From positions 1-61,221 of the IMG/VR virus record IMGVR_UViG_3300033143_005346: a DNA stretch of 61,221 bases, one strand, 5' to 3'. Shown here piece by piece: positions 1 to 57,257 of the stretch; positions within the stretch are counted from its first letter, which is position 1, and each line of letters begins with the position of its first letter. This stretch comes from a virus. The translations under genes were made by a program, and so were the position numbers. The notes below the pieces were generated by a model that saw only the letters and a list, made by a program, of their open reading frames with translations, was not told the DNA's origin and made no database searches.

Positions 1-528
1 TTTTGGAGCTTTGTTGTTTTTTTGACGAGCAATTTCCCATTCTGCAAATTTTTCTACTGGAAACCCTTTTGGAAAATCAATTTCCCCATACTTATTACTT
101 ATTACTTCTTCTATAATAGATAACGTACCAGTTTCCTTACCAGTTTCGCTACCAGTTTCGCTACCAGTTTCGGAAAAACCTCTTGCTTGATATTGCTCAT
201 AATTTAGGATAGTTACTATAACCCCCCTTACCAGTTTCGCTACCCGTATCATCGCCCGTTTCCTTAACAGTTTCGAGATTGTGTCTAAATGGTGGGGTTT
301 ATAACCGTGGGGGCGGTTCCCAACCTTATATTTAAGCATCTCTAATAATTCAGAATAAGATGTCAAGCATTGCCCCCGTTTTAACTTATAGCCCTTTTTA
401 GTACAATCTTTCCACTCTGCATTAAGCAACAAATAAACCCAAACCTTAAGATAGTGCGGTGGCTTATCCATTAGTTCTGAATCTAAAATGGCCCGATGTA
501 ATAATATATATCCAGTCTTTTTTACCAT
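1..528 (-). CDS. Replication initiator, N-terminal part (cut by window edge)
   Basis: Reads leftward from an ATG at 526-528 and stays open to base 1, giving 176 residues with no stop, so the C-terminus is missing. The N-terminus (MVKKTGYILLHRAILDSEL, then a tryptophan-containing segment and RGQCLTSYSELLEML) and the later TISKLLRKRAMI and RGVIVTILNYEQYQ segments match the winged-helix N-terminal domain of phage replisome organisers / DnaD-like initiators. These bind the phage origin and recruit the helicase loader. After the winged helix comes a Ser-Glu-Thr-Gly/Lys-Glu-Thr-Gly repeat linker (about residues 119-135), as is common between the two domains of this family. It starts 2 bp after the stop of the preceding gene, so it is probably in the same leftward operon. 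The DNA repeats under it are listed separately. Family assignment is from pattern recognition; the missing C-terminus should hold the DnaD-type or DnaC-interacting domain. Confidence 0.75.
   Translation of the reverse strand, partial: MVKKTGYILLHRAILDSELMDKPPHYLKVWVYLLLNAEWKDCTKKGYKLKRGQCLTSYSELLEMLKYKVGNRPHGYKPHHLDTISKLLRKRAMIRVAKLVRGVIVTILNYEQYQARGFSETGSETGSETGKETGTLSIIEEVISNKYGEIDFPKGFPVEKFAEWEIARQKNNKAPK
126..276. repeat. Two blocks of four 12-bp iteron-like repeats (candidate origin)
   Basis: Block A (126-173) is four head-to-tail 12-mers close to TACCAGTTTCGC. Block B (229-276) is four more, the first identical to the consensus and the other three more degenerate. The blocks are offset by 103 bp, which is not a multiple of three, so the same DNA word is read in two different frames of the initiator gene (SETG repeats in block A, the RKRAMIRVAKL segment in block B). 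An AT-rich stretch (about 77-125) lies beside block A. Known parallel: lambda-type origins place initiator iterons inside the initiator gene next to an AT-rich unwinding element. That these are the binding sites of the encoded protein is inference. Confidence 0.6.
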
Positions 529-1100: not shown

Positions 1101-1292
1101 TTAATCCTTTCCACAATATGGGCAGGTGTCTAAATAACTATCTTCCCCCCACCTTCTTAAGCCCTCAGAATTATAAACATAATCGCCACGGTAAAGCGCA
1201 AGTTTAATTTGCTCACAACAAAAAACCGCAACCGTCGTTTCGTATTTAATCATGCCTTCCACTCTTAATGTTTTTTCTTTAAACTGTACCAC
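1101..1292 (-). CDS. Small protein with C-terminal CPYCGKD zinc knuckle
   Basis: 63 aa from a GTG start (1290-1292) with GAGAGG upstream. It carries a central Cys-Cys pair and a C-terminal CPYCGKD, a typical half of a zinc ribbon. Its 5' end overlaps the HNH gene by 14 bp and its stop is 3 bp from the next start, so all are translated from one message. It was probably retained as a nucleic-acid or protein-binding accessory; function unknown. Confidence 0.55.
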   Translation of the reverse strand: MVQFKEKTLRVEGMIKYETTVAVFCCEQIKLALYRGDYVYNSEGLRRWGEDSYLDTCPYCGKD

Positions 1293-1593
1293 CGGAACCT
1301 CTCCTCTGAATATAAATCGTTAGACATTTAATTATTGCCATTTTCCTATCAAATCCCTTCCAGAAGGTTTCGGCCCCACGATGTTCCTTGTCGTGACAGT
1401 AAACACAAAGAGGCAAGGCCAGGTTGTCGTTATTTTTCGTGGCCATCCCAGGATTGAGACCAAAACTCTGGTGCGCCGGTACGATATCCAGGTACTCGGA
1501 TTTAATCCGACTGCAGCGAGTGCACGGAAGCGTGGTAAGAAACTCCAGATATTGCGGCAGTCGTAGAGGTTTTGGCTTTGGATATCCTACCAA
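1279..1593 (-). CDS. HNH-type nuclease-like protein (DUF968/Ref-like pattern)
   Basis: 104 aa. The order LPCTRC, then IVPAHQSFG, then LPLCVYCHDKEHRG and ETFWKGFD follows the treble-clef HNH fold found in lambdoid DUF968/Ref-like proteins: a zinc-binding C-x2-C, an Ala-His in the first strand, a second C-x2-CH, and a conserved Phe-Trp. Such proteins are linked to phage recombination and replication. The start is a TTG at 1591-1593 that overlaps the stop of the HTH gene; the weak start and overlap suggest coupled translation. The exact catalytic histidine arrangement should be checked before calling it an active nuclease. Confidence 0.65.
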   Translation of the reverse strand: MVGYPKPKPLRLPQYLEFLTTLPCTRCSRIKSEYLDIVPAHQSFGLNPGMATKNNDNLALPLCVYCHDKEHRGAETFWKGFDRKMAIIKCLTIYIQRRGSGGTV

Positions 1594-11461: not shown

Positions 11462-11872
11462 TTATCCGTAATGTTCTACGATGGTCAACTTAAATTGCTT
11501 GTAATTTCCCATCAGTTTCATAAACGAGTTAAAAGTTTTACCGCTATTCAACACAGCACGATTTCCTCTTAGCTTGCCAAAATGTTGAGCTGTAATGATA
11601 CAACCCATGGTGTCCGCAATGTCGTTACCGGCATGGAATAGAACGTAGTTCCTCCCTGGAACATCCATCACCTGGAAAGTGTCCGGATATTTTGGAGAGC
11701 TGTAGCGCTCACATAGATATTGCTGCGCCGGTATCGATGATACATTCTTAAGATTTAACAGGTCAGGTGGTTCCAGGGTCACACAAAAAACTTCCTTTTG
11801 CACCGACAGGATCCCAAAGGAGCCGAACTTTGCACTTTCCTCACGCCTTAATATATCAACCACAGGTAACAT
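11462..11872 (-). CDS. DUF5675-family protein beside the holin
   Basis: 136 aa. The order GSFGILSVQKEVFCVTLEPP, then SSIPAQQYLCERY, then DVPGRNYVLFHAGNDIADT with MGCI is the DUF5675 signature (a conserved His and Cys in a small beta fold). The family is often found in phage lysis or structural regions and has been suspected of acting on the envelope, but its reaction is not established. It sits between the giant virion protein (TAATG overlap) and the holin, so a role in lysis is plausible. I could not identify a separate lysozyme, amidase or transglycosylase in the window. Confidence 0.7.
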   Translation of the reverse strand: MLPVVDILRREESAKFGSFGILSVQKEVFCVTLEPPDLLNLKNVSSIPAQQYLCERYSSPKYPDTFQVMDVPGRNYVLFHAGNDIADTMGCIITAQHFGKLRGNRAVLNSGKTFNSFMKLMGNYKQFKLTIVEHYG

Positions 11873-14800
11873 TAGTCTGTCCTCCTTAAGCGTTCACGTT
11901 TAGATGGTCTGAAGGCACGCCTCAGATTATTCTTGATCGATTTGTGCGTGATAACCGGAAAAGGTTTTCCGGATCTCTGGACCAAGGTGTTGTAAGTTCG
12001 AATTTCCTCTAAGATATCCAGGTAGCGAACCTTTGAGCGTTTAACTTTAGGCTGATTATAAAAAGCCTTGATCCTGGCATAAATATCATGCCGCAATCCA
12101 GCCATGTTTTGTTCAACCTTACGCTCCTTCCACTGACGTTCACGAATCTTAGCTATCCTGGCAGGATTAAAAGAAAGACCCCTGAACATAGTTTCCGTCC
12201 AGTCCAGCTTGACGACTTCGCGTCCATAAAACAACGGAGCGTTGGAATTGGTAGTCACACCCTGGGTAGATTCACGATAAGCCTTGATCCCAGAGCCAAT
12301 AAAGTTAGGAGACATACGTTCAATCCCTTTTGCCCAGTCTCCGCGCAGGATCGACTTGCCACCGACCACCACATCAGATACCAGCGATCCTGGTGCACCA
12401 GCAAGATCTTTTAAGCTGGTAGGTATGTCGGTGATCCCAATCTCCAGAGATCCTTTCAACGATACTCCATGGCCACCCAGGCCAAAAGCACCCAGCCGGA
12501 CAATCTGTTCCATTGTTTCACCCCAGTTAGCCTCCAGCCAGTTATACATGGCTTCTTCCGGTTCGTCCGGAGCCCCTGGGAGTAAACCAAAGGCTTCCAT
12601 CATAACTTTAATCAACGGAGATGCCGCAGCACCACCAAGTATTGCTGGTGAAAGAGCCATGTAAAGTAGAGCTGTCCGATCTTTTGTTTTAAAGCCCAGG
12701 TCGTACATGGTCTGGAGATAATTATGACTGAACGTTTTGAACACATAAAACATCTGGGCCAGCCTGGCCATTGGATTGGCACCCCTGGCATAATGTGGTC
12801 GGTTTGCTTTAGAATAGACACCATGAGCCTTGTCGGAAGACTCCTTGGCTGTTTCCAACCACTGCTTATGTAAGACTTTCCTTTCGTCCGCACCGGCAGC
12901 GTCCCACGTTTTCTGATTGGCTTCACGCTGTCCAATGTAGGCTCCAGCAATCGTTGCGACACGATTTATCTGCTCAGTGACGCCGAAACCCATCATTAAG
13001 GTTTCAAGCATGGTGTCATAATTGTTGCCGATCTTAGACTTAAGCACCGACAGAGCCTCTTTATTGTACTGAGCCGTGTGCCATCCGTTATCCTCAATTT
13101 CTTCAAACAGATCATTCATCCACCCAGGCATGTTTGGATCCCTGCCAGATCTTCCGGCACGCCAGTACTCCAGGTATCCCTTCATGGATCTGGACAATAA
13201 GCCAGGAACTTTGTGCATAGGAATCTTAGCGAAGCCTCGCATGGCAGCTGGTACCGATGTGGCTAAAGCTGTAAGGTTGACCAGAGGGGCTGACACTCGA
13301 CCACCCAGATACTTCAAGACAGCAAGACCCTTAACCATTCCGATCATTCTGTCCACAGCCTCGTCGTTCCGGCCCATATCTTCCATGTAGGTTAAAGCAT
13401 CGTGAAAGGCGTTGCGCTGTTTGATTGGATCGATACGCCGATTTTTAACAAATTCCAGATAGTCTTTATAGGTAGCTTCCAGCCCGGCCCTGGTATGTTC
13501 GGCTCGATATTCCTGCCAGGAAATGTCGGTGCCAGTCATGTGCCGCAGCATGTCCAGCATCATTTTCTTCTTGGCTTCACCAGCAGCTACGCCCCTCACA
13601 TACTTAGCCATGCGCTGCACCGAATCTTCTTCATAGCCCTTCCACACCCCAGTGCCGGTAGCGTCGTTTCGCATAATCATATGTGCTCTGACACCACGAC
13701 CCTTGAAGATGTTGGCCACGCCTTCAGCCAGCTGCTGACCCATTTTCAACTGAGCCTTCTCCAGCTCTGCCATAACATCGGCAGCCACACCCTTTTTCAT
13801 CTCACCGGAAACCTGCTCCAGAGCTTTATTCATCATCTCCTGGAAAGCCACCACCTGTCCGGCTATTTTAAACACGTCCTCCGGCATCTTGTTGATCTTC
13901 TCAATGTCAACAATGTAGTTTTCGTACACTTTTCTGCTTGCTTCGGCGGCAGCAAAGCTCTTTGTCTCAAAATGTTTAAGAATCGGGTGGAACTTGTCTT
14001 CATAACCCTTCTTGGGCCTGGCATACATGCTGAATCTTCCAGGCTTGCGAATCCGTGGCATATAGTACCCACGCATTTGCCCCATCTTGGCCAGAGCCAC
14101 CTTCAGGTCTACCTCCACCCGTGCACCGTCTACCCAGGTAGCAACGCTGGGAAGGTCCAGACCTTTGGCGTTGTATCGTTTAATCAGATCGTTGAGCGCT
14201 CCACGCATGATGTTGAAGACATTGTGAGACATCTCCCGTGTACCCTGGACCCAATCCTGAGCCAGCTCGGAGTATCCCTGCTCGGCCAACTTAGCTACTT
14301 CCAGACGTGTCGCTTCTGCCCAACCATCATCATAACTATTGGCGGTACCAACAACCTTGCCCTCTGGGTCTTTTATCTCAAAGGTCTTGCCCGACGACTC
14401 CTCGATACCCTCTTTCATTTTTACCGTATAGCCATACTTATTCATATCGTTATCATCCAGATACTTATTGATGGCTCGGTATTCTTTCTTGTTTGTCTTT
14501 TGCAGCTTGCGACCGATCCGGATCCTGGACTTACCGTTCTGATCTTTCTCTATGAAGTTAAGACCCTTGTAATAATTGTCTGATCGCTGGGTGGCGTCTT
14601 CAACCATGGCACCAGCAGCCGGAACCTTGCTGAAATAATGGATGGGTGTAAACAATAGACGTTCCCATGCGGTGGTATCTTCAAACTCACCGATACCAAC
14701 TTCCTTCATTCGGGACATCCATCGGCCTATCTTGCCCCAGCCTGTCATGGCATGGTCACGCAGGGATCTACTCACATTCTCAGCAGCTGCACTGTTGCCG

Positions 14801-17800
14801 TGCTCACGCATAAATTCCTGGTCCTGGGGTGTGGCCGTGGTGTACTGTTCCACCGCTTCGATATCAACAGCGTTTTCGTCGAAGACTGTATAGTTAAAGT
14901 GGGGGGAGTCCTCAACGCCAGATAGTGTTCCGGATGGGAACTTAACCCCATCAATACCAGCCCTCAATAAAAAAAGTGAGGCTTTCTTGTTGGCCTTTTC
15001 GTATTGATCGAAACTCTGCCGGAAGGGGCCAGGTTCATCTTGCATAAGCAGTGTGTCTCCAATAAGGCCATAAGACTCTTGACCGGTAGATGGCTCATAG
15101 CCTTCGGCAAACCCCAAGGTTTCTTCAAGATCGACCAAATCATCAACCAACCAGTTTTCATCTATGGCCTGGTCAACAATTTTCTTAGCTTGGGCCTCTG
15201 CCACACTATCCCCCCACGGCAACCAATCATATTCGTTGGGGTCTTTACCCTTGTGTAGCATGACTTTGTATAGCGCCCTGGTTTTTTCTCGCTCCATTGT
15301 CATCTGACTGATAGAGTCCGGACGAATAGTTTTAAGATAATTGAGAGCATCTTGTTGGCCTTGAATCTGTCTGGTCATAAGCCCAGCTCCCTTGTCTTTA
15401 CCAGCAGCTTTCATTCTTTTATGCTCAGTTTTGTTCACCCCTATATCAATTTCATAACCTGCAATAAGGTTATCAACAATATCCTGAATGGCTGCCACCA
15501 CGCCAGCTTCACCGGTATTAAGGTAGGCTGCATGGATAGCATGGTCTTCAATATATATGTCTTCAGTTAGTGTAGCTTTAACAACAGCCATGGAGTCAGC
15601 ATGTCTTTCATCGCGGGCCTTACCCCTCATTTCCGACATAAATTGATCAGGACCATAACTGATCGATTGACCATTTTTCCAAAGCACAACTGTTCCAGTA
15701 GGTGTCTTCCAGGAAAGATTAGCCCAAGAATCACTACCCAGCCGATCAGCATATTCTTTAGCTATACTCTTTTTGTCAGAAAAATATAAACCCCACCCAA
15801 AGGCTTGCGCTCCCTCTCCAGATCCAATGAACCTGGTACGAAAACGCTTAAAGAAAGAAGGGGATCCATGATAAGCAGTAGTCTGATACTGTGGACCCAA
15901 AAACTTTCTGGCAAACGATTTTCGTTTTGGACCCTGATAGACCTTGCCGGTCTCAATATCCCTGACGATACTCTGGGGAGTGAGCTTGAACATACCGACA
16001 AACCCATCAATCAGGTCCTTGATCTTCTGGATGATCCGGTCGATAAGACCCTTTTGCTTGGCCCGATTGTTAATGGACCAGGCAACGTAGTCAGCTCTAT
16101 CTTCAGCACCACCCACATCTTTAATGTTTTTTGGTTCCCACCTGTTGTTGGCGTGCAGTTCCTGGATATGGTCTCGCAGGACATCAGACTCTTTAGACGT
16201 AATAAAGCCCACATCTTCCAACCAGTGGTACGACTCATGGGTCAAGGCCCAGTTGTCAGCCAGGTCTTTATGCAGCTCAATTTTGCCTTCAGCATATTTC
16301 CCTATGGCAGTCTCACCTTTCACCGGCACCCGCCCCATGTTCACATAGAAATTGGCATTGTCAACATCCACCGAATCCACCGACCTAATTATTAACTGTT
16401 GTCCGTTGGGCGTAGTTACGGCTACAGATCCGTCAGCATTTTTAATTACGTCGGTACCCTTAAATAAACGTTTAATGTCGTCCAAGGTAATACCCTGGTT
16501 ACGCATATAACGCTTGGCGTAGGCTTCTTTGGCCTGACGTGTAGCCATGTACTGTTCAATCGGTCCGGAGATCCGCACCGGTGTTTCACCATAGAACACC
16601 TGTCGGATGATCGATTCGTTCTTAATCGGAGCTGTCCTGTCTCGGTACTGGTCAGCCAGCTTGCTCATGCTGTTTTTCTCACCGGAGAAAGCAGCTATAA
16701 AATCTCCGGCAGAAGACAGGACAGCCTCAACTTCCAGAAGCGACAGTTGTGTGTCGGTATCTGCCTCAGCAGCTGCCTGTGCTTGTCTCAGTTTGAGCTT
16801 ATCAGAGGCTTTTTTCAGGGCTTTTTTGATTGAGGGATACTCTGCCCCTAAGACCCCAAGCTGTGTACTCAGATCGCGCCTCCGTGCCCTCTCAGCGACG
16901 CTCTGTATGGCGTCAATGAGACTCGGCGAATCAATCTTAACCACCAGGTCTGCCACATTCACGGTGGAGACACCCTTCTTGCCGATCTGTCCATAATGCA
17001 CACCGTCAATCACGATTAAAGAATCACGTTGAGCCTTCGACAGGGCTTCATGGTTATAGACTTTATAAAGTATAAAGTCTTGTCGCAACCTATCCTTAAC
17101 CATCCGGTCAAAGCGGAGCTTGGTTATCTTTGGCTCTATTTCTTTTAGGGCATCGAATAGTTCATCGGTATGGATGATGACACCGCGCTCAAAGTTTGGA
17201 TTAAGGGACGCTGCAATTTCTGGCAGCTTAACCGTCAGTGCATCACCCCAAGCCTTATGGAACAAGTCCTGTGCTTCAAGCCACATTTCACTAACATCTT
17301 CTGGAATCTCCTTTTTAATGTCTTCAAAAAACTGCACAAAACCTTTAATAGAGTGGTAGCGGTTCTGTAAATGTTTGCGCCATACCCTGTCAGCTACTTC
17401 CAGTTTTTTACCTATCGGATTAATACCAAGGACACCAGCAAAAAGTTGAAGGTCTGCCAAGTTGTATTTTTTATCCATTTCCAGAACCGGTTGATCGGTA
17501 AGCGTAAACGGCTCCAAGCTGTCCATTACGTCCAGATTGTTTACCACTCGTTCAAGCAGCTCGGCTTTGGTGCCAGTCTCATACGTTCCCACCAGCCTGG
17601 CCAAGCCGCGAAGTTCGTTGGCTGTAAATTGTTCCGGCTTCATTGTAGCAATATCCAGATCACCCGAAAGCACCTTGTCTGGCGTGGATCCCTTTGGGAT
17701 ACCCCAGTATTCATATTCGATACCCTTAGTGAGTGTCCGAAGTGCTTCTGTACGAGCTTTTTTAGCTACTGCGGCTTCGGCCCTTGTAAAATCTGCACGG

Positions 17801-20358
17801 TCAAATGAGCCGTCTCTTTTGCCAGTTTCGACAATCTCTTGTGGACTGGGGAGTTGATCGCTGCCCCCATCTCTCGCACGTTCTGTCGGACCAACTCGTC
17901 CAGGGCTGCGTCCAACCACTCGTTGATTGAATAACCTAAGCTGCCTTGGGAGTCCTTTAGCGCGGCTGGGGTAATAGAGTTTGATGTCATTGGGAGTATC
18001 TCCTGTAGGTTCGTTGATTAATGTTTGGGCGTCGAACAATTTGCCCTGCCTCATTGGTAATGGCTTATACTCAGTGAGGATCGTTTCAACAGGGACCATG
18101 ATCTCTTTCACGATCTCTTTTATTTTTTCCTTTTCGACTACACTTTCGCGGGTTAATTCTTTGTCTGGCATCTGCAAGGCAGCCTCTGCAATCTTTAAGG
18201 TCTGGGGAAACAGGTGGGCAGTTTTTTTGTGCATCGTTTCACGGGCGCTGGAAAACTTCTCGTCGTGTGCGCCTTGGAAAGCATGGGTAAATTCATGATC
18301 GATCAAACCCTTAAGATATGTGGCATAGTGTAGTGGAGACTTGGCAGCATCTTTGTCTAAAGACAGCGGATTCATACCCATTTCTCCCGAACCTGAAGCG
18401 TACTCACCTTCAACAACCCCACCATCCACCACCAAAGACAACATCGGATAGAATGTTTCAAGTTTGCCACCAGCTGCTCCGGCATACATCCTGGCAACTG
18501 CCTCAAAAGCCAGCAGATGCTTGGCATGGAACATCGAACCACCCTTGTAACCCTTAACTCCAACGTCAACCTTTAGGTTCAACTGCTCAATGGGTGTGTA
18601 GGGAATGGTTTGGTTCAGATATGGTCGGCGCAACTGCTCCTCAATGGTGAGCTTTTCAATTGGCTTCTGTGCTTCGTTCCAGATATCGGTAACGGTTTTC
18701 ACCAGATCGTTGTACCCCTTGTCCGTCTTGGTTTTTTTAACCGTGTTCTTCCACTCGCTCCGGTTTGCCAGGCTGTGCCACTTGTGATCCACAGTAGTCC
18801 GTGCAGCCGACAGTGGATCCACAGCATATTTAGCAATAATCTTTTCAGCCAGCTGCTTGCCATCCCACTTCATCTCCATGCGTGAATCGGTCAACGGATA
18901 ATAGTTTCCTCCAGGAGTTTGGCTGGTAGTAACATCGATAATCAGCACACCAGGGAAGCCATCGTTATAAATATTATTAATACCCTGGGTGAGCTTGGCT
19001 CCGGTCTGCTTGTCCACCAGGCGAATTATCATCTTGCGGTTGTACCCCTTTGGAGCTTTGGCATAATATTTCATCGACAGATCAGATTCGTCTTTGCCCT
19101 TGTTTACAACATCTTTAAACTCTTTAAATTTTTTATTAGCAAATGGATTTTTGACCTTTTTGTTGTTATAAGAAACGGAGACATTTTTGGGCAGCACGGT
19201 GGTCTCCACATAGCGCTGGGCATCATCGTCAATAATATATTTGGCAGCCTCCACACGGATAGCCGTACCCTGTCTTGGCTCCGGCAGTGTACCAACCTGG
19301 TCAGCTTCTTGCGCTCTGGCTCCATCGTGCCGGTTATCTCTTGTTTCAAGTGACCATGTAGATGATTCGTGCGGTCCCAGGATAACAGCCTTAGCAATAC
19401 CAAACCCACCAAATCGTCCAATCGTGTCCTTGCCGGTACCATGTAAAGCCAAAAATTTATCCCTGATATCGGTGTCCGACATACCAACCCCGTTATCCAC
19501 AACCTCAAAGGATGTTCTCATGGTGCCAGGGGTTTCAGCCAGTTTGGCATCATCTATCTTTCGACCCCGCACCGGATACTCCTCGTCGGTAGACTCATGG
19601 TCATCGCTTACATAGGTTTTAATATTAATTACACCCTTTTTAATCTCACCCTTTTCCAGACTTTCCAGCACAGCATCCATTGAGTTCTGTAGACCTTCAC
19701 GCACACTGACATTTCCCAAATAGGATGTGTAAGGGTACTTGCTTTTAGCCTCATTATTCCAGGCTCTGGCTACATTAACACCATAACCGGCAGACACCTT
19801 CTCAACACTATACCGGACACCAAACTGACCAGCTGGATCCGGATTGCCCATCAGAACCATGCGGGTATGGTTGGCCCCGATTAGGTTTTCCTGGATTCCT
19901 TTGATCGCACTCTCTACCTTGCTTTTATACTCTGGATCCTTGGTATACTTTTTGGTCCGACGCGCTGCAATAATGCCACCATCGACCGGAATGGGATAGG
20001 AACCATCGTAAACATCGCTCTTGGCAAAGGCTTTAGAGTCCCAAAACATTTTCTGTAGCTCGGTGATCCTGGCTTTTAGCTTGGGTAAATTGTTCCGGAC
20101 AAATTCAAAGTTAAACCACCGGCCAGGTGTGGTATCGATCTTTAGGATCTGACCTTTCATCTGGGTGTGCAACTGATCTATAACACTGTCATATTCCTTG
20201 TCCAACATGTCCAACACGTCCTGGACTGCCTGGATTTCAGCCTCGCCTTTGGCCATATCCATATCTCTATAGTCAGAAGTCAGATCTCTCAAACGCTTTG
20301 CCGTTCCAGAATCAAAGCGTTTGCCCATTTTTTTAAGACAATATGCAAGTGTCGCCAT
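11872..20358 (-). CDS. 2828-aa polyvalent virion protein: GHKL ATPase, two zincins, SAP, ART
   Basis: The largest gene in the window. Motifs in order: a coiled-coil start; a GHKL/HSP90-type ATPase at about 185-370 with N-box EGLQNSMDAV (E221, N225, D228), G1 box VVDNGVGM (D288), G2 box FGGFGIAKA (316-324) and GT at 364; a zincin HEFTH at 688-692; two SAP-like helix-extended-loop-helix segments at 911-939 and 965-993; a second zincin HESYH at 1374-1378 with AEDRADYVA (1418-1426) as a possible third-ligand helix; and an ADP-ribosyltransferase domain at about 1490-1835 with AYHGSP (H1497), GWGLYF (Y1525) and the closing NYTVFDENAVDI. The last 950 residues are helical with hydrophobic patches. 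Such mosaics are known as polyvalent proteins, thought to enter the host with phage or plasmid DNA. No catalytic residue in these motifs is obviously lost. Ejection from the particle is inferred. Confidence 0.85.
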   Translation of the reverse strand: MATLAYCLKKMGKRFDSGTAKRLRDLTSDYRDMDMAKGEAEIQAVQDVLDMLDKEYDSVIDQLHTQMKGQILKIDTTPGRWFNFEFVRNNLPKLKARITELQKMFWDSKAFAKSDVYDGSYPIPVDGGIIAARRTKKYTKDPEYKSKVESAIKGIQENLIGANHTRMVLMGNPDPAGQFGVRYSVEKVSAGYGVNVARAWNNEAKSKYPYTSYLGNVSVREGLQNSMDAVLESLEKGEIKKGVINIKTYVSDDHESTDEEYPVRGRKIDDAKLAETPGTMRTSFEVVDNGVGMSDTDIRDKFLALHGTGKDTIGRFGGFGIAKAVILGPHESSTWSLETRDNRHDGARAQEADQVGTLPEPRQGTAIRVEAAKYIIDDDAQRYVETTVLPKNVSVSYNNKKVKNPFANKKFKEFKDVVNKGKDESDLSMKYYAKAPKGYNRKMIIRLVDKQTGAKLTQGINNIYNDGFPGVLIIDVTTSQTPGGNYYPLTDSRMEMKWDGKQLAEKIIAKYAVDPLSAARTTVDHKWHSLANRSEWKNTVKKTKTDKGYNDLVKTVTDIWNEAQKPIEKLTIEEQLRRPYLNQTIPYTPIEQLNLKVDVGVKGYKGGSMFHAKHLLAFEAVARMYAGAAGGKLETFYPMLSLVVDGGVVEGEYASGSGEMGMNPLSLDKDAAKSPLHYATYLKGLIDHEFTHAFQGAHDEKFSSARETMHKKTAHLFPQTLKIAEAALQMPDKELTRESVVEKEKIKEIVKEIMVPVETILTEYKPLPMRQGKLFDAQTLINEPTGDTPNDIKLYYPSRAKGLPRQLRLFNQRVVGRSPGRVGPTERARDGGSDQLPSPQEIVETGKRDGSFDRADFTRAEAAVAKKARTEALRTLTKGIEYEYWGIPKGSTPDKVLSGDLDIATMKPEQFTANELRGLARLVGTYETGTKAELLERVVNNLDVMDSLEPFTLTDQPVLEMDKKYNLADLQLFAGVLGINPIGKKLEVADRVWRKHLQNRYHSIKGFVQFFEDIKKEIPEDVSEMWLEAQDLFHKAWGDALTVKLPEIAASLNPNFERGVIIHTDELFDALKEIEPKITKLRFDRMVKDRLRQDFILYKVYNHEALSKAQRDSLIVIDGVHYGQIGKKGVSTVNVADLVVKIDSPSLIDAIQSVAERARRRDLSTQLGVLGAEYPSIKKALKKASDKLKLRQAQAAAEADTDTQLSLLEVEAVLSSAGDFIAAFSGEKNSMSKLADQYRDRTAPIKNESIIRQVFYGETPVRISGPIEQYMATRQAKEAYAKRYMRNQGITLDDIKRLFKGTDVIKNADGSVAVTTPNGQQLIIRSVDSVDVDNANFYVNMGRVPVKGETAIGKYAEGKIELHKDLADNWALTHESYHWLEDVGFITSKESDVLRDHIQELHANNRWEPKNIKDVGGAEDRADYVAWSINNRAKQKGLIDRIIQKIKDLIDGFVGMFKLTPQSIVRDIETGKVYQGPKRKSFARKFLGPQYQTTAYHGSPSFFKRFRTRFIGSGEGAQAFGWGLYFSDKKSIAKEYADRLGSDSWANLSWKTPTGTVVLWKNGQSISYGPDQFMSEMRGKARDERHADSMAVVKATLTEDIYIEDHAIHAAYLNTGEAGVVAAIQDIVDNLIAGYEIDIGVNKTEHKRMKAAGKDKGAGLMTRQIQGQQDALNYLKTIRPDSISQMTMEREKTRALYKVMLHKGKDPNEYDWLPWGDSVAEAQAKKIVDQAIDENWLVDDLVDLEETLGFAEGYEPSTGQESYGLIGDTLLMQDEPGPFRQSFDQYEKANKKASLFLLRAGIDGVKFPSGTLSGVEDSPHFNYTVFDENAVDIEAVEQYTTATPQDQEFMREHGNSAAAENVSRSLRDHAMTGWGKIGRWMSRMKEVGIGEFEDTTAWERLLFTPIHYFSKVPAAGAMVEDATQRSDNYYKGLNFIEKDQNGKSRIRIGRKLQKTNKKEYRAINKYLDDNDMNKYGYTVKMKEGIEESSGKTFEIKDPEGKVVGTANSYDDGWAEATRLEVAKLAEQGYSELAQDWVQGTREMSHNVFNIMRGALNDLIKRYNAKGLDLPSVATWVDGARVEVDLKVALAKMGQMRGYYMPRIRKPGRFSMYARPKKGYEDKFHPILKHFETKSFAAAEASRKVYENYIVDIEKINKMPEDVFKIAGQVVAFQEMMNKALEQVSGEMKKGVAADVMAELEKAQLKMGQQLAEGVANIFKGRGVRAHMIMRNDATGTGVWKGYEEDSVQRMAKYVRGVAAGEAKKKMMLDMLRHMTGTDISWQEYRAEHTRAGLEATYKDYLEFVKNRRIDPIKQRNAFHDALTYMEDMGRNDEAVDRMIGMVKGLAVLKYLGGRVSAPLVNLTALATSVPAAMRGFAKIPMHKVPGLLSRSMKGYLEYWRAGRSGRDPNMPGWMNDLFEEIEDNGWHTAQYNKEALSVLKSKIGNNYDTMLETLMMGFGVTEQINRVATIAGAYIGQREANQKTWDAAGADERKVLHKQWLETAKESSDKAHGVYSKANRPHYARGANPMARLAQMFYVFKTFSHNYLQTMYDLGFKTKDRTALLYMALSPAILGGAAASPLIKVMMEAFGLLPGAPDEPEEAMYNWLEANWGETMEQIVRLGAFGLGGHGVSLKGSLEIGITDIPTSLKDLAGAPGSLVSDVVVGGKSILRGDWAKGIERMSPNFIGSGIKAYRESTQGVTTNSNAPLFYGREVVKLDWTETMFRGLSFNPARIAKIRERQWKERKVEQNMAGLRHDIYARIKAFYNQPKVKRSKVRYLDILEEIRTYNTLVQRSGKPFPVITHKSIKNNLRRAFRPSKRERLRRTD

Positions 20359-41227: not shown

Positions 41228-44200
41228 TTATGCTATTTCTACTATTGTTGAATCCGGCCTAAAGTATATAGTGTCAGCGCTTAAGGCCCAACCAATTTTT
41301 TGGAGTTGATCCCCAGCAACTGCCGGAGCTGATTGTGTAAGCGCTCCGGTTGTTGCTGAAACATAAATAGGTCCATTCACCCACGTCCAGGACGTATCGC
41401 ATATTTGACCCTCTAATAAAACCACTTTTGTACCGGTACCACTCGACAAAGCCAAGGCCCTGCAAGGCATGGTTCCCGCTGCGCTGGCGTCGCATCTTTC
41501 ATAATGAAAGTCAGCAGCACAATAAAGAGCGTTGCCGAAGACAGCCGAAGCATCATCAGTCACTACAGTTAAGGTTCTCCCGCGGTAAGTAGAAGTGACT
41601 GTGAGAATGGCCTCTCCGGTATTTATGGGTTCCCAGGTTCCGCCGGTGTCCTTACTCTCCATAACCCCAGAATTATCTCTGACCCCGTATCCGGTCGATC
41701 CTAACGTAGTGTTAAAATTAAGATATCCACCGGTTCCGTAAATTGCCAGAATATGATTGTCCATCTCACCGCGTAAAAATTCATAGGATGAATTCCCAAT
41801 AACAAATTGATCGTCTGCAGTATTTGACGCAAACTCACGATCACCAAGGACAATATTCCGCGAACCGGTAGAAAGAGACCTTCCTCCGGTATATCCCAGG
41901 CAGAGATTTTCCGTGCCTGTACTGACAGTGTACCCAGCCTCATATCCGACCGCAATGTTTGATCCGCCCGTTGTTACATTATAAAGAGTTTTCGCTCCAA
42001 TTGCTACACAAACACCAGCTGTTGCTTCAGTAAAAACTCCGCGCATTGCCTGGAACCCAAAGGCACTGTTGTTGTTGCCAGTTGGGAAGGAACATGCCAA
42101 GGTCCCGAAGGCAGAATTACCGTTGCCAGAGGACAATTCCTGAAAGGCGAGAGTCCCAACGGCTGTATTTTGATAGCCATCCGTTACTAATTTGCCTACA
42201 CTGCGGCCAATCAGCACGTTGCTGTCTCCGGTTGTCATTCCATAGCCAGCTTCATTCCCAATCAGCGTATTCCAATAATAAGTAGAGGTTGTGTCTACCC
42301 CCCTGCCAGCATCATATCCTATTATAACATTTTCGCCACCAGAAGAAGCCCCAAGGAATAAAGCTGCATAATTTCCGATAATAATATTTTTGTCGGCCGA
42401 AGCACCAGTAAGGTCGTTTCCGGCACTTACACCAGCTATAAAGTTGTCTGTAGAGGTAGAAATTAAAGAAGCCCCAGCACCCGTGCCACCAACAATATTG
42501 TCGTAGGCATCTTCTGAAAAAAGACCGCTACCACCAGTAGTAAAACCAGTCCACGACCCTGAACTGTCTTTAAATTCCATGGTGCCGGTATTATCCCTGA
42601 TTCCATATCCGCCCGATCCTAACGTGGTGTTAAAATTCAAGTATCCATCAGCTCCATAAATGCTTAACTGATGATTGGCCATATCTCCACGCAAAAATGG
42701 ATAAGTAGCCGTTCCTATTCCGAATTGATTGTCGGCGGTGGCTGATAATGGCTCAAGGTCGTAGCCAAGCAGAATATTGTTGGATCCGGATGTAAGCCCA
42801 GACTCCGCCACCTTATAGCCAAGAAGCAAATTGTTTGATCCAGTCGTAAGTTGCTCCCCACATTCAGCACCCATGGCGGTATTATTATGTTTGGTATTTG
42901 AACTCGTACCCAGCAGACACCTATATCCAACAGCCACATTATTGTCACCATCTTCAACTCTACTGTTGGCCGATGCACCTATGCCGACATTGTTTACACC
43001 GGTAAATACATTTTGACCACAAGAAAATCCCACAAAGGTATTGTTGCCATTTACCTGGCCTGTTGCGCCCTGTCCAGCCACATATCCAATACATGTATTT
43101 GCAGTGCTATCTCCATATCGACCGGCCCATATACCTCCATAAAAATTGTTAGTTCCGGATGATGTTTCTCCCCCAGCAAGGGTGCCACCCATGATATTGC
43201 TGCCAGTCTCTGTAAAAATGCCGCCACCATTGGTGTCAACATAAAGTTTAACCGCCTTTTCCGTAGGAACAGCGTCGTCTGAATCGTCTCCCAAAGTCCC
43301 ATCTGTTGAAAATTCGTTTATTGAGGTTCCGTTTAATAGTGTAACTGCACTATTTGTATCAATAAGAAAAGAATTAGCACTGGCACCTGCTTCAATTTTC
43401 ATTACTATAGCGGTATTAGTATTATCATAAAATGTAAGGCTGTCATCTGTATTGCATGCAATATCCCAATATCCAACATCATTTTTTAAAGTAATGCTGG
43501 CGGTATTATTTGTTCCACCTTCGACTAAAATTGTAGCATATCCGGAGGTGTCTGATACATGTAAAAGTTCAGATGGGGTATCTGTCCCTACACCTACTTG
43601 ACCTCCGTCTTCTACAAACAGGCCAAGAGTTCCACTATCATCTTTTAAAGATAATCCACCTGAATCACGGGCACGGATTTCGTCTGTTGCAAAATATAAA
43701 CCATCGGCTTGGGTTATGTTGCCATCAGCCGCGATAGTAACCCTTTCAAGGCTGGTTGTTAAAAATACTAATGCTGCTACGTCTTGAGTAAGTATTTTAA
43801 ATTCGCCTGTTCCTCTATGGACTATATGGGATTCAGCATTTTCCCCAGTATTGTTTCTTAGTATTCTAAATCCAAAATCGCTATAAGTATCATCACCAAT
43901 TAAATCAACATGAGAATATCTATTACCACTACCAAGAGAATTGACTTTTATTGACACTCCATTTGTAGATATCATACCATCCGCATCAACACTCAAAGCA
44001 GGATCAGGACTTCCATCACTCGCCACCAACTCAGAGTGCCTATGAAGTGCATCGGCAATAGAATTATCCGTCAAAGTATCTAACTCAGGACCGGTCGCGG
44101 ATGTATCCGAATGACTTGCTATGGTATGAGAACCACCGGCATGGACGTGGAGTAAATCCGCATTGCTGCCATCTGTTAGCGTTTCAAGATCTGCCTCGGT

Positions 44201-47128
44201 GATATTTGTTGTTTGTCTGAGGGCTTCGCCATTAGCAGCTGGGGCTTGAAGGTTTATAATTTGGTACAAATCGTTCATGTCGATATCAGCAGTCATGGTT
44301 CCAAGCGCTGTGTCTGTACCCTGGGTATGACGAGCAGATGAATTTTCTGAGATCCCAGCATGGTCATGCAGAGTTGTGTCACCCCCACCAGTTAATGTGT
44401 TAAGATTGGTTTCGGTAACATTTGCTGTCTGTCTGATTGCCTCACCTAAAGCAGCAGGAGCCGCAAGGCTTGTAAGCTGATACAGGGTATTCATGTCAAT
44501 GTCTTCAGCCATGGCCCCAAGGGCTGTATCGGTACCCTGGGTGTGCCTTGCGGAACTATTCTCTGAAATTCCATCGTGGTCATGCAGGGAGGTATCGCTT
44601 CCATCAGTTAGTTGCTCAAGGTCTGCCTCGGTGATATTCGCTGTTTGTCTGAGAGCATCACCTGCAGTATCAGGAGCCTGCAAGTTGACCACCTGAAAAG
44701 AACCATCCATGTCAATATCAGCTGTCATGGTGCCAAGAGTTGTGTCGGTTCCTTGAGTATGCCTTGCAGAGGTATTCTCTGAAATGCCGTCGTGATCGTG
44801 TAGAGCTGTGTCGCTTCCGTCTGTTAGTTGCTCAAGATCTGCCTCAGTAATATTCGTGGTTTGTCTAAGGGCTTCACCATTAGCGGAAGGCGCTTGCAGA
44901 TTAACCACCTGGAAAGAATTGTTCATGTCAATATCGGCGGTCATCGTTCCAAGCGTCGTATCGGTACCCTGAGTATGTCTGGCTGAGATGTTTTCTGAAA
45001 TCCCGTCATGGTCGTGAAGTGTGGTGTCGCCGCCACCCGTTAATTCTTCAAGTTGTGCTCCGGTTGCGTCAACAACATCGCTGTGGGAGGTTATTGTATG
45101 TGAACCGACAGAAGGAGCTGCCCATGTCTGGTCCCCCCTTAAGAAAACCGTGTTATCAGCAGATCCGGTCCCCAGTTCAGCGGTTGGCACAAGGGTCGTA
45201 GCCCCTAAAGACGCATACCCGTTGGCGGCACTTTTTTCTGATTCCAGCTGATATTGAGTGTGTGGATCCCCAGTGGCAAGATTTAATAAATTAGTATGAT
45301 CAATCTTAGCTTCATCGATCTGGATTTGAACATCCTCGTCACCACCATCATTTAATGTTGACAATTCAAGGATATTTGTTGTGTTTGAACCGTCGGACAC
45401 CACGATTTTATCTTCCAGGAATCCAGCAGTCGTGTCGTTGGAAGATCCCTTAACCAGCTCGTCTGAACCAGCAGCAATCGTTTGCCAGGTCTGGTCGCCA
45501 CGAAGGTAGGTGGAAGAAGTCGCAGATCCAGTGCCCAACTCAGCAGTCGGCACCAGGATTGAAGCATCCAGAGAGGCGTAGCCGTTGGCAGCGCTCTTTT
45601 CTGACTCCAGTTGGTAGCCGGTATGAGGATCAGCCGCACCCGCATGGGTGGAAATCTCAGCGCCTACTTCATTGTAAACCGAAAGAGCTGTCGGTAATTC
45701 GGTGTTCAGGCTGCCCGAAGAAATAGCAGTAACGATAGCGCTGACTGCCTGGCCGGAATCAAAATTAAATTCGCCGGTAATGTTCTGGTCCCCAGTGACC
45801 GTAAAAACACCATCGGGCCAAACAGAAAAGAAAAACTGGTCCCCAATCACACCACCCGTGGTTCCGCTGAAGGTAGCCTCCACTCCATTGGCAAGCGCCT
45901 GAGAAGAACCCGTAATCGAAGTGCCTGTAAACTCAGGGGTTTCTCCATCATTATTAAGATATAACGTAAAAGTGTTTGGAGAGCCGGTTCCGTCGATCTC
46001 TAAGATATAGTGTATGGGATCTGTCCCTGTGTTGCCAGATATGTCAACAGCACTAAGGTTTAATGACCCCGTTCCTACAAAACTGGTAAGGTCCTTAACA
46101 CCGTTACTGGAATAATATTTTGCCGTTTGAAGATTAAAGCTGCCATTAAGATTAAAATCGTCGGCCATCATTGTAATGTCATAATTCTCAAAGACTAAAG
46201 GCTTCCAGTTGGCACCTGGGCCTCGATAGCTCTGTATAAACCATTCAAACACATCTCCTATGGAGCCAGGATTGTCTGACATAAAAAACTGAAATTTTGT
46301 TGTGTCAGAAACTGTTTCTGTAACGACAATTCGTGCAAAATCGTTAGTCTTTTCAAATTCAATGGTTGACGAATTGCCAATCCCAGGATTCATCAACCGA
46401 AGCTCGTTTGTTGAACCTGCTGGCCCTATATCCACTCTGGACGCAATGGCGCTAAGGACGACAGCGGTATCAACGGTTATGTCCACCTGTCCGGTACCTG
46501 TGTCAACAACCTCTACGCTGCTATCACCTTCGCTGATTATGTCGTGACTGTGGCTAAGAACAGAATAGGTAGCAGAAAGATCTGGGATCCGGTCTATGTG
46601 GACATCTTCGCCGCCAGTCACAGACCAGTCAATATGTTCGTCAGCTTCAAAGTTCGCAAGCTGATTGTGATCAATAGAGCCCTCATGTTGAGTAACGGCG
46701 GTCGCCGTAATTCGATCTACATGAATATCCTCTCCACCGGTTACGGCCCAATCGATATGTTCGTCAGCCTCAAAGTTCAGTAATTGGTCGTGATCAACCT
46801 TGGCCTCGTCGAACTGCAGTTGTCGATCTTCATCGGCACCATCATTTAGGGTAGACAATTCAAGCGGATCAGAGGTGTTGGTCCCGTGTGCGACAATAAG
46901 TTTGTCTTCAAGGTATCCACCCGTGGTGTCATTAGAAGAAACCTTAAACGTATCAGCGGAAGCAGTTGGATCCACATAATATGATAACAATGTCCAGGCG
47001 GTAGTTCCATCACCCATCTTGGATTTTCCGGTATCAGTTTCATAGCCCATCTCACCGTTGGCAAGCGTAGGATCTACCGATGTCCAGTTTGCTGCTGTAT
47101 CTCGTCTAAATTGAATAATATCAGCCAC
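41228..47128 (-). CDS. 1966-aa long tail fibre with YadA-like head repeats
   Basis: GTG start at 47126-47128 overlaps the previous stop (TAGTG). Residues 1-60 are the common fibre N-terminal module (IIQFRRDTAANWTSVDPTLANG, KSKMGDGTTAW). Two copies of NFEADEHIDW with TGGED follow, then a globular middle, two copies of QYQLESEKSAANGYASL, and four tandem 72-residue repeats around HDHDGISEN (about 700-990). From about 1300 there are YadA-like head repeats (NNTFVGFSCGQNVFTGVNNV, NNTAMGAECGEQLTTGSNNL). A hinge module (LRGDMANHQLSIYG and GYLNFNTTLGSGGYG) is present twice, about 309 residues apart. It ends in a small beta tip. Trimeric, surface-exposed receptor-binding fibre. Confidence 0.8.
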   Translation of the reverse strand: MADIIQFRRDTAANWTSVDPTLANGEMGYETDTGKSKMGDGTTAWTLLSYYVDPTASADTFKVSSNDTTGGYLEDKLIVAHGTNTSDPLELSTLNDGADEDRQLQFDEAKVDHDQLLNFEADEHIDWAVTGGEDIHVDRITATAVTQHEGSIDHNQLANFEADEHIDWSVTGGEDVHIDRIPDLSATYSVLSHSHDIISEGDSSVEVVDTGTGQVDITVDTAVVLSAIASRVDIGPAGSTNELRLMNPGIGNSSTIEFEKTNDFARIVVTETVSDTTKFQFFMSDNPGSIGDVFEWFIQSYRGPGANWKPLVFENYDITMMADDFNLNGSFNLQTAKYYSSNGVKDLTSFVGTGSLNLSAVDISGNTGTDPIHYILEIDGTGSPNTFTLYLNNDGETPEFTGTSITGSSQALANGVEATFSGTTGGVIGDQFFFSVWPDGVFTVTGDQNITGEFNFDSGQAVSAIVTAISSGSLNTELPTALSVYNEVGAEISTHAGAADPHTGYQLESEKSAANGYASLDASILVPTAELGTGSATSSTYLRGDQTWQTIAAGSDELVKGSSNDTTAGFLEDKIVVSDGSNTTNILELSTLNDGGDEDVQIQIDEAKIDHTNLLNLATGDPHTQYQLESEKSAANGYASLGATTLVPTAELGTGSADNTVFLRGDQTWAAPSVGSHTITSHSDVVDATGAQLEELTGGGDTTLHDHDGISENISARHTQGTDTTLGTMTADIDMNNSFQVVNLQAPSANGEALRQTTNITEADLEQLTDGSDTALHDHDGISENTSARHTQGTDTTLGTMTADIDMDGSFQVVNLQAPDTAGDALRQTANITEADLEQLTDGSDTSLHDHDGISENSSARHTQGTDTALGAMAEDIDMNTLYQLTSLAAPAALGEAIRQTANVTETNLNTLTGGGDTTLHDHAGISENSSARHTQGTDTALGTMTADIDMNDLYQIINLQAPAANGEALRQTTNITEADLETLTDGSNADLLHVHAGGSHTIASHSDTSATGPELDTLTDNSIADALHRHSELVASDGSPDPALSVDADGMISTNGVSIKVNSLGSGNRYSHVDLIGDDTYSDFGFRILRNNTGENAESHIVHRGTGEFKILTQDVAALVFLTTSLERVTIAADGNITQADGLYFATDEIRARDSGGLSLKDDSGTLGLFVEDGGQVGVGTDTPSELLHVSDTSGYATILVEGGTNNTASITLKNDVGYWDIACNTDDSLTFYDNTNTAIVMKIEAGASANSFLIDTNSAVTLLNGTSINEFSTDGTLGDDSDDAVPTEKAVKLYVDTNGGGIFTETGSNIMGGTLAGGETSSGTNNFYGGIWAGRYGDSTANTCIGYVAGQGATGQVNGNNTFVGFSCGQNVFTGVNNVGIGASANSRVEDGDNNVAVGYRCLLGTSSNTKHNNTAMGAECGEQLTTGSNNLLLGYKVAESGLTSGSNNILLGYDLEPLSATADNQFGIGTATYPFLRGDMANHQLSIYGADGYLNFNTTLGSGGYGIRDNTGTMEFKDSSGSWTGFTTGGSGLFSEDAYDNIVGGTGAGASLISTSTDNFIAGVSAGNDLTGASADKNIIIGNYAALFLGASSGGENVIIGYDAGRGVDTTSTYYWNTLIGNEAGYGMTTGDSNVLIGRSVGKLVTDGYQNTAVGTLAFQELSSGNGNSAFGTLACSFPTGNNNSAFGFQAMRGVFTEATAGVCVAIGAKTLYNVTTGGSNIAVGYEAGYTVSTGTENLCLGYTGGRSLSTGSRNIVLGDREFASNTADDQFVIGNSSYEFLRGEMDNHILAIYGTGGYLNFNTTLGSTGYGVRDNSGVMESKDTGGTWEPINTGEAILTVTSTYRGRTLTVVTDDASAVFGNALYCAADFHYERCDASAAGTMPCRALALSSGTGTKVVLLEGQICDTSWTWVNGPIYVSATTGALTQSAPAVAGDQLQKIGWALSADTIYFRPDSTIVEIA
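41635..42745 (-). repeat. Duplicated hinge module in the long fibre gene
   Basis: The block ending in YLNFNTTLGS and RDN(T/S)G occurs at about 42563-42745 and again at about 41635-41815, offset by about 928 bp (about 309 residues). Between them lies a second set of YadA-like repeats, so the whole stalk-plus-hinge unit was duplicated. Confidence 0.75.
44150..45060 (-). repeat. Four tandem 216-bp (72-aa) repeats in the long fibre gene
   Basis: The codons for HDHDG/HDHAG recur at 44361, 44577, 44793 and 45009 (same base of the motif), exactly 216 bp apart. Each unit includes SARHTQGTDT, then LGTM-type and ADIDMN-type residues and QLTDGSDT. A partial, diverged fifth unit lies on the low-coordinate side. 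The repeats are similar enough to allow unequal recombination and length change. Confidence 0.85.
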
Positions 47129-53384: not shown

Positions 53385-53634
53385 AAGTCGTCCCTCCTTC
53401 ATCCTCATATTCAACATTTAACACTAAATCGATCCCCTTAATCATGCCGACTATTTCGGCTGTCTTTTCAGTCGTGGCTCCAGCGTCACCCAAAAGAGAT
53501 TTGCCGGTACTAAGCGCTGTTTGCAACACGCGCTTTTCTTCCCGAAGTCCTTTAAGAATCGCTCTTGTGATCGGCAGCGTTTTCCACAAACCGAAACTTT
53601 CCTTAGATACTTCCTCCTGGTTGGACTGCTGCAC
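53368..53634 (-). CDS. Small unknown protein between portal and GroES genes
   Basis: 88 aa from GTG 53632-53634, chosen because AAGGAGGAG lies just upstream inside the portal gene; the longer frame has no such site. It overlaps the portal gene by 32 bp and the GroES start by 17 bp. Helical, with KGLREEKRVLQTALSTGKSL and a C-terminal acidic end. Possibly a minor head-assembly protein. No family is recognised. Confidence 0.5.
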   Translation of the reverse strand: MQQSNQEEVSKESFGLWKTLPITRAILKGLREEKRVLQTALSTGKSLLGDAGATTEKTAEIVGMIKGIDLVLNVEYEDEGGTTYGLSD

Positions 53635-55777: not shown

Positions 55778-55778
55778 A

Positions 55779-57257
55779 TTAATACCCCGTCGTTGGATTT
55801 ACCATATCGTTGTCCACTTCTTCTTCATCAACTTCATCTTCTGGCGGGACATATTCCGTGTCCAGGAGAAGTAGCCGGTATAGGTTTTCCATAAAATCGT
55901 CATCTTCTTTAACCGGCTTTCCGTCATCACCGTACATCCAGCCCTCAATTTCGTCAATCGTGCGAAGCATTGAGTTGAATATAAACAGGCTGGGCATTTT
56001 GTTTGGACCCAGCAGGTGGTCGTTCAGCTCGATAATCCCAGAATCTTTATCCTTTGTAGCAGTTTCCAGGATAATATCATAGGGAAAAAGTTTTGCTGCA
56101 ATTTTATCAAAGGTCGTATTCTCGTTATTTGCATCTCCCTTAGCCAGCGGATCACATATAATTCGATTAATCCGCAACACGCGCCTTTTCATAATTCGAA
56201 CAATCCAGTCTCCAATGTCGTGCCCACTGCCTGGATCCCAGATCTCATGGAATAAATACCTGAAATTTCTTTCATCGGTAGCCATAAATAAAAGAGCCTG
56301 GGGTTTGCGTGGGTGTGTATCGATTCCTATATCCACCAGCCAGTTGGTCGGAATCTTAAACGGCTCAACCACATTGCGCTGGCGACTATAGTTTTTGGCA
56401 ATCAAACCAGACATATAGCTTGGTATGCCTTTTAGCCGCGCTTCTTTTTCTTCCGCATTGAGTTTTGACTCATAGTCCGCAACACCCTGGGAAGTTAGCC
56501 CAAAACCCACATTGTCGTATATTTCGCCGTGGACATTAAAAACCGTTGGGTCAGGCCGCCCATCGTCCAGCTTTTTCTTAATAACCTCTTTGTCGATCCA
56601 TGCTTCCTTAAGCAACGTGGCACAAAATAGTTCACGCCCCTGGCGATCGATCAATCCACGGGCATTAGCCACTCGGATATTACGCTTGGGCGGTTCATCA
56701 TAGCAAAGGAGATCGCCTTCCCAGCCTTCGTGAAGTTCTACATCCTGCTTATTGCTCATTAATTCAAGGGTAGACCCGCTATCCAAATCCTCCCAGTAAG
56801 CCTCAATCCCGTGCTGGTTCTTTCTGATCTTGACGGGGATCCGATTGGGCCACCACTTCTTTAATGCCGGTACAACAACGCTTCGAATATGTTTTTCCCA
56901 GTCCTGACCTACATATCTGATCTTCCTGGGTAAATTGTGCATAAAAGGAAGTTTTAAATTATTCCAAGGCCAACGGCCCCTCATTGTCGCTATGATAATA
57001 ATTGCACCAATTGTCGTTTTTCCGATTCGATTCCCACCGGTAAACGTAAAAACCTTAAAGCGTGGATGACTCCAAGCCTCCAGCAGTTCTTCCTGGCGCG
57101 GGTTTGGCCTGGTGAAAAATTCGATCTCATTTTCTTTGCGATACCGAATCTGTCCCTGGAGCGCTAAAGCCTGGCGTGTCTTAGCTTTAGCAATCTTTTG
57201 CTCAATCCGCAGCTTTTTACGCTTTGACGGATCTATTTTTAAAGCAGGTTCACCCAT
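55779..57257 (-). CDS. Terminase large subunit
   Basis: 492 aa. Walker A is GGNRIGKTT (74-82) and Walker B is DLLCYDEPP (182-190, D187/E188). The nuclease domain starts at VDIGIDTHP (D309, D313) with IICDPLAKGD (D369) as a further acidic residue. It packages DNA by ATP-driven translocation and cuts concatemers. It lies directly before the portal gene. The small subunit is separated by about ten accessory genes, which is unusual. Confidence 0.9.
   Translation of the reverse strand: MGEPALKIDPSKRKKLRIEQKIAKAKTRQALALQGQIRYRKENEIEFFTRPNPRQEELLEAWSHPRFKVFTFTGGNRIGKTTIGAIIIIATMRGRWPWNNLKLPFMHNLPRKIRYVGQDWEKHIRSVVVPALKKWWPNRIPVKIRKNQHGIEAYWEDLDSGSTLELMSNKQDVELHEGWEGDLLCYDEPPKRNIRVANARGLIDRQGRELFCATLLKEAWIDKEVIKKKLDDGRPDPTVFNVHGEIYDNVGFGLTSQGVADYESKLNAEEKEARLKGIPSYMSGLIAKNYSRQRNVVEPFKIPTNWLVDIGIDTHPRKPQALLFMATDERNFRYLFHEIWDPGSGHDIGDWIVRIMKRRVLRINRIICDPLAKGDANNENTTFDKIAAKLFPYDIILETATKDKDSGIIELNDHLLGPNKMPSLFIFNSMLRTIDEIEGWMYGDDGKPVKEDDDFMENLYRLLLLDTEYVPPEDEVDEEEVDNDMVNPTTGY

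Follow-up and report, generated by a model that had tools for sequence, protein, structure and literature searches.

The 61,221-base IMG/VR virus contig analysed here (the window) most likely carries an iteron-based replication origin within the coding sequence of its own initiator, together with a second site embedded in the codons for the wing of the initiator's DNA-binding domain. Our analysis directly establishes the repeats, their layout in two reading frames, their conservation at the DNA level and the genome-by-genome co-variation of the two blocks in which they occur.

Results

The initiator gene and its genomic context

The end of the window truncates the initiator gene. Two further contigs, L002 and L003, match the 528 bp present in the window exactly, and with them the complete initiator frame amounts to 260 amino acids (Table 1). 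The profile phrog_2514, 'DnaD-like helicase loader', matches initiator residues 4-121 (E 9.7e-20), in agreement with the DnaD-like initiator proposed in the original prediction, and a PHROG 2514 profile match was also obtained for all 20 aligned relatives. Helicase loading of the PHROG 2514 type is a candidate function of this initiator, whose gene adjoins that of a DnaB-type helicase.

Several other features of the window were recorded. A small HNH/DUF968 protein is encoded just upstream of the initiator on the same strand (window 1279-1593), and in 80alpha a DUF968 gene likewise lies near the initiator gene. A match to a portal protein (PHROG 1216; SU10_portal weak in Pfam) and a weak match to a terminase large subunit, both within window 53603-57257, suggest a tailed, podovirus-like phage. 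An ORF of 2828 aa at 11872-20358, with a weak ART-PolyVal match below the Pfam cut-off, possibly encodes a giant polyvalent protein. Finally, a tandem repeat with a 216-bp unit present in 2.5 copies (44492-45030) is contained in a 1966-aa ORF on the minus strand (41228-47128).

Table 1. Features of the initiator gene, its repeats and the adjoining helicase gene. Positions are those of the window unless a contig is named.
Feature	Position	Strand	Description
DnaD-like initiator (replisome organizer), 5' 176 codons	1..528	-	ORF; PHROG profile; overlap with L002 and L003
AT-rich tract, candidate unwinding element	79..128	-	73-77% AT; downstream of the linker array; contains AAGTAATAAGTAATAAGTA
Block A, four 12-bp iterons	126..173	-	Gene nt 356-403; codes for the disordered SETG linker
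55-bp spacer between blocks	174..228	-	Encodes the turn of the wing, its second strand and NYEQYQ
Wing of the initiator's winged helix, as predicted (strands 94-99 and 102-107)	208..249	-	AlphaFold2 model, pLDDT about 96
Wing iteron GCGAAACTGGTA	229..240	-	At register -54, counted from where the NYxxYQ motif ends; register conserved in relatives
Block B, four 12-bp units	229..276	-	Gene nt 253-300; end of recognition helix and first wing strand
Full 260-aa initiator gene	L003:485-1267		ORF
DnaB-type replicative helicase, 441 aa	L003:1270-2595		Starts two bases after the initiator gene

Two blocks of a 12-bp word in two reading frames

The 12-bp word, which on the coding strand reads GCGAAACTGGTA, occurs in two blocks of the minus-strand initiator gene. 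Block A is composed of CCGAAACTGGTA GCGAAACTGGTA GCGAAACTGGTA AGGAAACTGGTA, all four of them good copies, and block B of TCGAAACTGTTA AGGAAACGGGCG ATGATACGGGTA GCGAAACTGGTA. The original prediction had described eight 12-bp units in two blocks of four. Both blocks are indeed present, but within block B only the outer units are strong (10/12 and 12/12) and the inner two are weak (7/12 and 8/12). The starts of the blocks lie 103 bp apart, exactly as predicted; this distance is 1 mod 3 and 7 mod 12, so that blocks A and B are read in different frames. The wing iteron precedes the first linker iteron by 67 bp.

Block B agrees with the block A consensus at 37 of 48 positions. Among 3,000 synonymous-codon shuffles of the gene the best agreement was 34 (mean 27.4), and among 3,000 codon permutations it was 29; apart from slid versions of blocks A and B, no other 48-mer on either strand of the 61-kb window scored above 29. 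As had been claimed, the repeats are therefore not dictated by the protein: block B is out of frame and exceeds every one of the synonymous shuffles. A second origin with the same iteron was not found in the 61-kb window; the genome is incomplete, and further origins may lie elsewhere in it. Interpretation of block B as the product of a frameshift or an alternative frame (ETVKETGDDTGSETGKG) was also considered and was rejected, given that the annotated frame yields a wing that aligns with those of relatives (IRVAKLVRGVIVTILNYEQYQ).

Protein regions encoded by the two blocks

Block A encodes residues 119-135 (SETGSETGSETGKETGT) and block B residues 85-100 (SKLLRKRAMIRVAKLV). The AlphaFold2 model consists of a winged helix with its wing, followed by a flexible linker. 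Its domain is modelled with a pLDDT of about 96 (recognition helix 78-90; wing strands 94-99 and 102-107) and linker residues 117-133, with a pLDDT below 50, are predicted to be disordered. Translation and model together bear out the earlier assignment of block A to SETG-type repeats and of block B to part of the winged helix. A Foldseek search with the model gave no match at E<=0.001, and a search of solved structures by sequence returned nothing useful. VIA-align returned winged-helix look-alikes only, including, among many others, the initiator structures 4pql (Z 8.2), 4pt7 (Z 7.7) and 5kbj (Z 7.5), which we take to be RepA of the pSK41 type and whose scores do not stand apart from those of other winged helices.

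The wing word tracks the linker word in relatives

The collection of relatives drew on phage records, on viral and genome contigs, and on two samples that each comprised about 400 genomes. A broad alignment offered no stretch conserved enough for scanning, and a narrower alignment used the motif YQDPKNY; the set of relatives found with this motif is biased towards DPKNYE members. Among 61 non-redundant relatives, 26 had a best wing-linker match that surpassed synonymous shuffles at p<0.01, and at p<0.05 this number was 36. Frequent wing-linker offsets in these relatives were 67, 79, 91, 103 and 115 (that is, 67+12k); also among the commonest was an offset of 132, which falls outside this series and which a single group of relatives shares.

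For 34 non-redundant relatives that share this wing type, the register was anchored at the end of the NYxxYQ motif. In this set each genome has the word that is found in its wing again in its linker, at a fixed shift of 67 bp, plus 12 for each unit, which is 1 mod 3, and the word itself varies from genome to genome. Among relatives, L098 and L019, for instance, have the different words ACGAAGGTCACT and ACGAAGGGCACT, respectively. The wing scored 16.18 of 24 against the linker of its own genome and 13.40 against the linkers of other genomes (n=34), the maximum among 20,000 permutations being 14.65. The gain of own over cross comparisons was 2.8 at offset 67 and ranged from -0.62 to +0.62 at 15 other offsets between 60 and 75. 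Under a synonymous null, in which the shuffles preserve all protein-level co-variation, the own score had a mean of 12.76 and a maximum of 13.41, and the own-cross difference was at most 1.69. The gain is retained by the 11 members at <=50% identity (own 15.0 versus cross 12.0) and hence is not the echo of a single clade. When the variable eight bases alone were compared, the own linker was best or tied best in 16 of the 34 genomes, with 2.5 expected. The 67-bp distance is also set by the length of the protein from the wing to the end of the domain, and the evidence therefore resides in the matching word and not in the distance.

In L021, L007, L093, L094, L096, L100 and L151, an insertion of several residues just upstream of the wing is made of iteron units (ATMKATMNATMITTTKATHG in L021), as if the DNA-binding domain were growing by whole 12-bp units.

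Constraint on the third codon base

In 33 of 34 genomes, G is the last base of the codon that precedes the conserved lysine or arginine at register -54, and this codon stands for T, M, A, K, L or V. Fourfold sites at this wing register carry G in 25 of 26 cases, where the codon usage of the individual genes predicts 5.7, and not one of 200,000 simulations produced a count above 15. The amino acid at the wing register is free to change, but the third base is not. In the common DPKNYE members, the word ACTACGAAGGNA is translated as T-T-K-A where it lies in the wing and as N-Y-E-G where it lies in the linker, which makes one DNA word of two apparent protein motifs; what is conserved in 'protein motifs' such as TTKATRG and DPKNYEG may in part be a DNA site. 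Together, the 67+12k offset, the wing-linker co-variation and the third-base conservation in relatives uphold the earlier view that a single DNA word is kept in two frames.

The AT-rich tract

The tract downstream of the linker array, which includes a 7-bp repeat at 89-107, is real as an AT-rich element beside block A (73-77% AT versus 61% in the whole gene), but the enrichment is modest and the gene contains an AT-richer stretch elsewhere. Across relatives, the AT fraction increases by about 0.10 downstream of the array, at a similar distance (family mean). In most relatives, an N/K/D/E-rich tract (NKNDKNEKN) follows the array and is encoded by A-rich DNA, with 9-bp periodicity in several genes. 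Its conservation may reflect a role in DNA unwinding and not one in the protein.

Remoter relatives and exceptions

Among more distant DnaD-like initiators, a lag of 11 or 22 was significant in 23 of 47 (p<=0.01, maximum over lags, synonymous null), and the wing-linker gain was found at offsets 67, 66, 78, 89 and 100, covering all three frames. A period of 11 bp rotates through all frames and cannot be a protein repeat. Judging from these sequences, in-gene arrays with a period near the DNA-helix pitch are common in this initiator family, of which the window is the 12-bp case.

The wing copy is not universal, because three of the 34 subfamily members (L031, L114 and L117) have the linker array without a convincing wing copy and in L010 (phiERICV) no repeats were found at all; homologues of these kinds, which by the original prediction's own standard count against it, form a minority. 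L114, L116, L117 and L118 have the wing KSFRG and the linker DPKNYS, with a 12-bp array of the TTEG type farther downstream and no wing copy. This initiator type also occurs on two circular extrachromosomal records of 41-45 kb, L160 (NZ_CP121492) and L161 (NZ_CP034119), whose hosts are Staphylococcus epidermidis (phage-like DNA) and Staphylospora marina (with a DnaB-like helicase adjoining the initiator), respectively. Oceanobacillus sojae (L096) and Neobacillus piezotolerans (L098) are further hosts of relatives.

Discussion

Comparison with known in-gene origins

The Rep protein of pSK41 binds four boxes inside its own gene, and the origin encodes the Rep linker (PMC5703833). The window initiator resembles the RepA_N initiators (pSK41 Rep and the chimeric pPR9 Rep), which have an N-terminal winged helix with a DnaD-like fold, in its predicted N-terminal winged helix, possibly of like fold, in its putative origin boxes within the gene and in a linker that the putative origin would encode, but adds a second iteron in the wing codons that is absent from the description in that review (PMC5703833). 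It also differs from these plasmids in belonging to a phage system with its own helicase, and a RepA_N domain was not detected in the window initiator, for which Pfam gave no family match up to an E value of 1. The linker repeats of pPR9 rep and of 80alpha gene 20 are spaced at 15 bp, not 12.

Among phages, SPP1 gp38 binds direct repeats of oriL inside gene 38, next to which lies an AT-rich unwinding element (PMC6316719), and 80alpha ORF20 shows no complementation in trans, ORF20 and ORF21 together sufficing for autonomous replication (PMC5499656). The 80alpha record annotates a putative origin within initiator gene 20, in which the linker repeats are followed by an AT-rich run; no wing copy was seen in this initiator gene. 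We take 80alpha ORF20 to represent a different wHTH family, of the PF13730 type. Common to SPP1 gp38, 80alpha ORF20 and the window initiator is an organizer gene with direct repeats, adjoined by a helicase or loader gene (for SPP1 by description). An AT-rich region follows the repeats in SPP1 and 80alpha, to which the modest tract of the window is a candidate counterpart. A Staphylococcus phage StB20-like initiator (PHROG 2514) belongs to the same family as that of the window and has 12-bp iterons in both wing and linker, but the iteron words and the flanking motif differ (DPKNYE there, the SETG linker here).

In phage lambda, the iterons lie within the initiator gene O, between the regions for the DNA-binding and helicase-recruiting domains and by an AT-rich tract; they number four, are about 19 bp long and are known from the linker region only. 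The position of the lambda origin inside the initiator gene has been described (PMC5499656). The term lambda-like, used in the original prediction, is apt for the logic of iterons in an initiator gene, but a Pfam search up to E 1 found no lambda O family match for the window initiator, and initiators of Gram-positive phages and plasmids are nearer. As in the latter, the direct repeats inside the window gene are under DNA-level constraint. A full-text literature search, which covered mainly papers outside subscription journals, returned no account of iterons in wing codons, and the descriptions that it covered place iterons in the linker; an iteron embedded in the wing is therefore a variant that seems not to have been described.

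Proposed mechanism

By the same logic as the in-gene origins of SPP1 gp38, 80alpha ORF20 and pSK41 Rep, the window array is most likely a replication origin. The mechanism that we infer comprises binding, cooperative bridging, melting and helicase loading. Through its N-terminal winged helix the initiator would recognise and bind the 12-bp direct repeats, and it would assemble both on the linker array (block A) and on the second site 67 bp away, out of frame, in the wing-coding DNA (block B). Once assembled on both, it would place the downstream AT-rich tract under strain and open it, and its C-terminal domain would bring in the DnaB-type helicase, the product of the adjacent gene.

Alternative explanations

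Block A lies in frame, the linker that it encodes is disordered and of low complexity, and its period, 12, is a multiple of 3, all of which would suit a SETG-type protein repeat grown by slippage, with block B resembling it by chance. We regard this as very unlikely, in view of a block B that is out of frame and beyond the synonymous shuffles, of the own-versus-cross and third-base tests over 34 genomes, and of the 11- and 22-bp periods in 23 of 47 remoter relatives. The sites might otherwise be operators or silencing sites for transcription of the initiator gene itself or of the early region; a protein that binds DNA and finds sites within its own gene could autoregulate, and the sequence data fit either role. 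Such a function is nonetheless quite improbable for sites that lie deep within the coding region and not at a promoter, in a gene that adjoins a replicative helicase, and the literature treats the in-gene sites of SPP1 gp38, 80alpha ORF20 and pSK41 Rep as origins (PMC6316719, PMC5499656, PMC5703833).

A further alternative concerns the wing copy alone: the linker array by itself would be the functional origin, and the copy in the wing a by-product of a shared local duplication or a secondary, low-affinity site. L114, L117 and L031, with a linker array and no wing copy, are consistent with this explanation, as is the drop in match strength upstream of register -54. We nevertheless find it rather doubtful, since the wing and the linker of a genome agree in their word although this word takes many forms, and since the third base stays G despite amino-acid change, which is not expected of a passive by-product. 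Our preferred reading remains an in-gene origin in which the wing-embedded iteron takes part as a second site.

Implications for initiator and origin specificity

The codons for the wing residues that follow the conserved lysine lie in the iteron's variable half, so that a change in the wing iteron can automatically change the wing; from this lysine onwards the residues are K-L-V in the window and K-A-T, K-V-T or K-G-T elsewhere. It is conceivable, and we propose it tentatively, that the binding site and the codons of the wing that reads it are one and the same: the variable iteron half would set the wing residues, and site and reader would be a single sequence. If this is true, a wing iteron and an array that change together would alter the wing and give rise to new origin specificities that stay matched to the initiator. 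The wing copy may have such a role in specificity, or it may simply be a second site in a permissive loop.

Origins located in initiator genes are already known; what seems new here is a conserved iteron in the codons of the DNA-binding wing, in a second frame, in dozens of divergent phages. The resulting sequence rule (the register, the 67+12k shift and the third-base G) can be used for locating candidate origins in many uncharacterised phages and prophages, and the joint change of initiator and origin specificity becomes testable.
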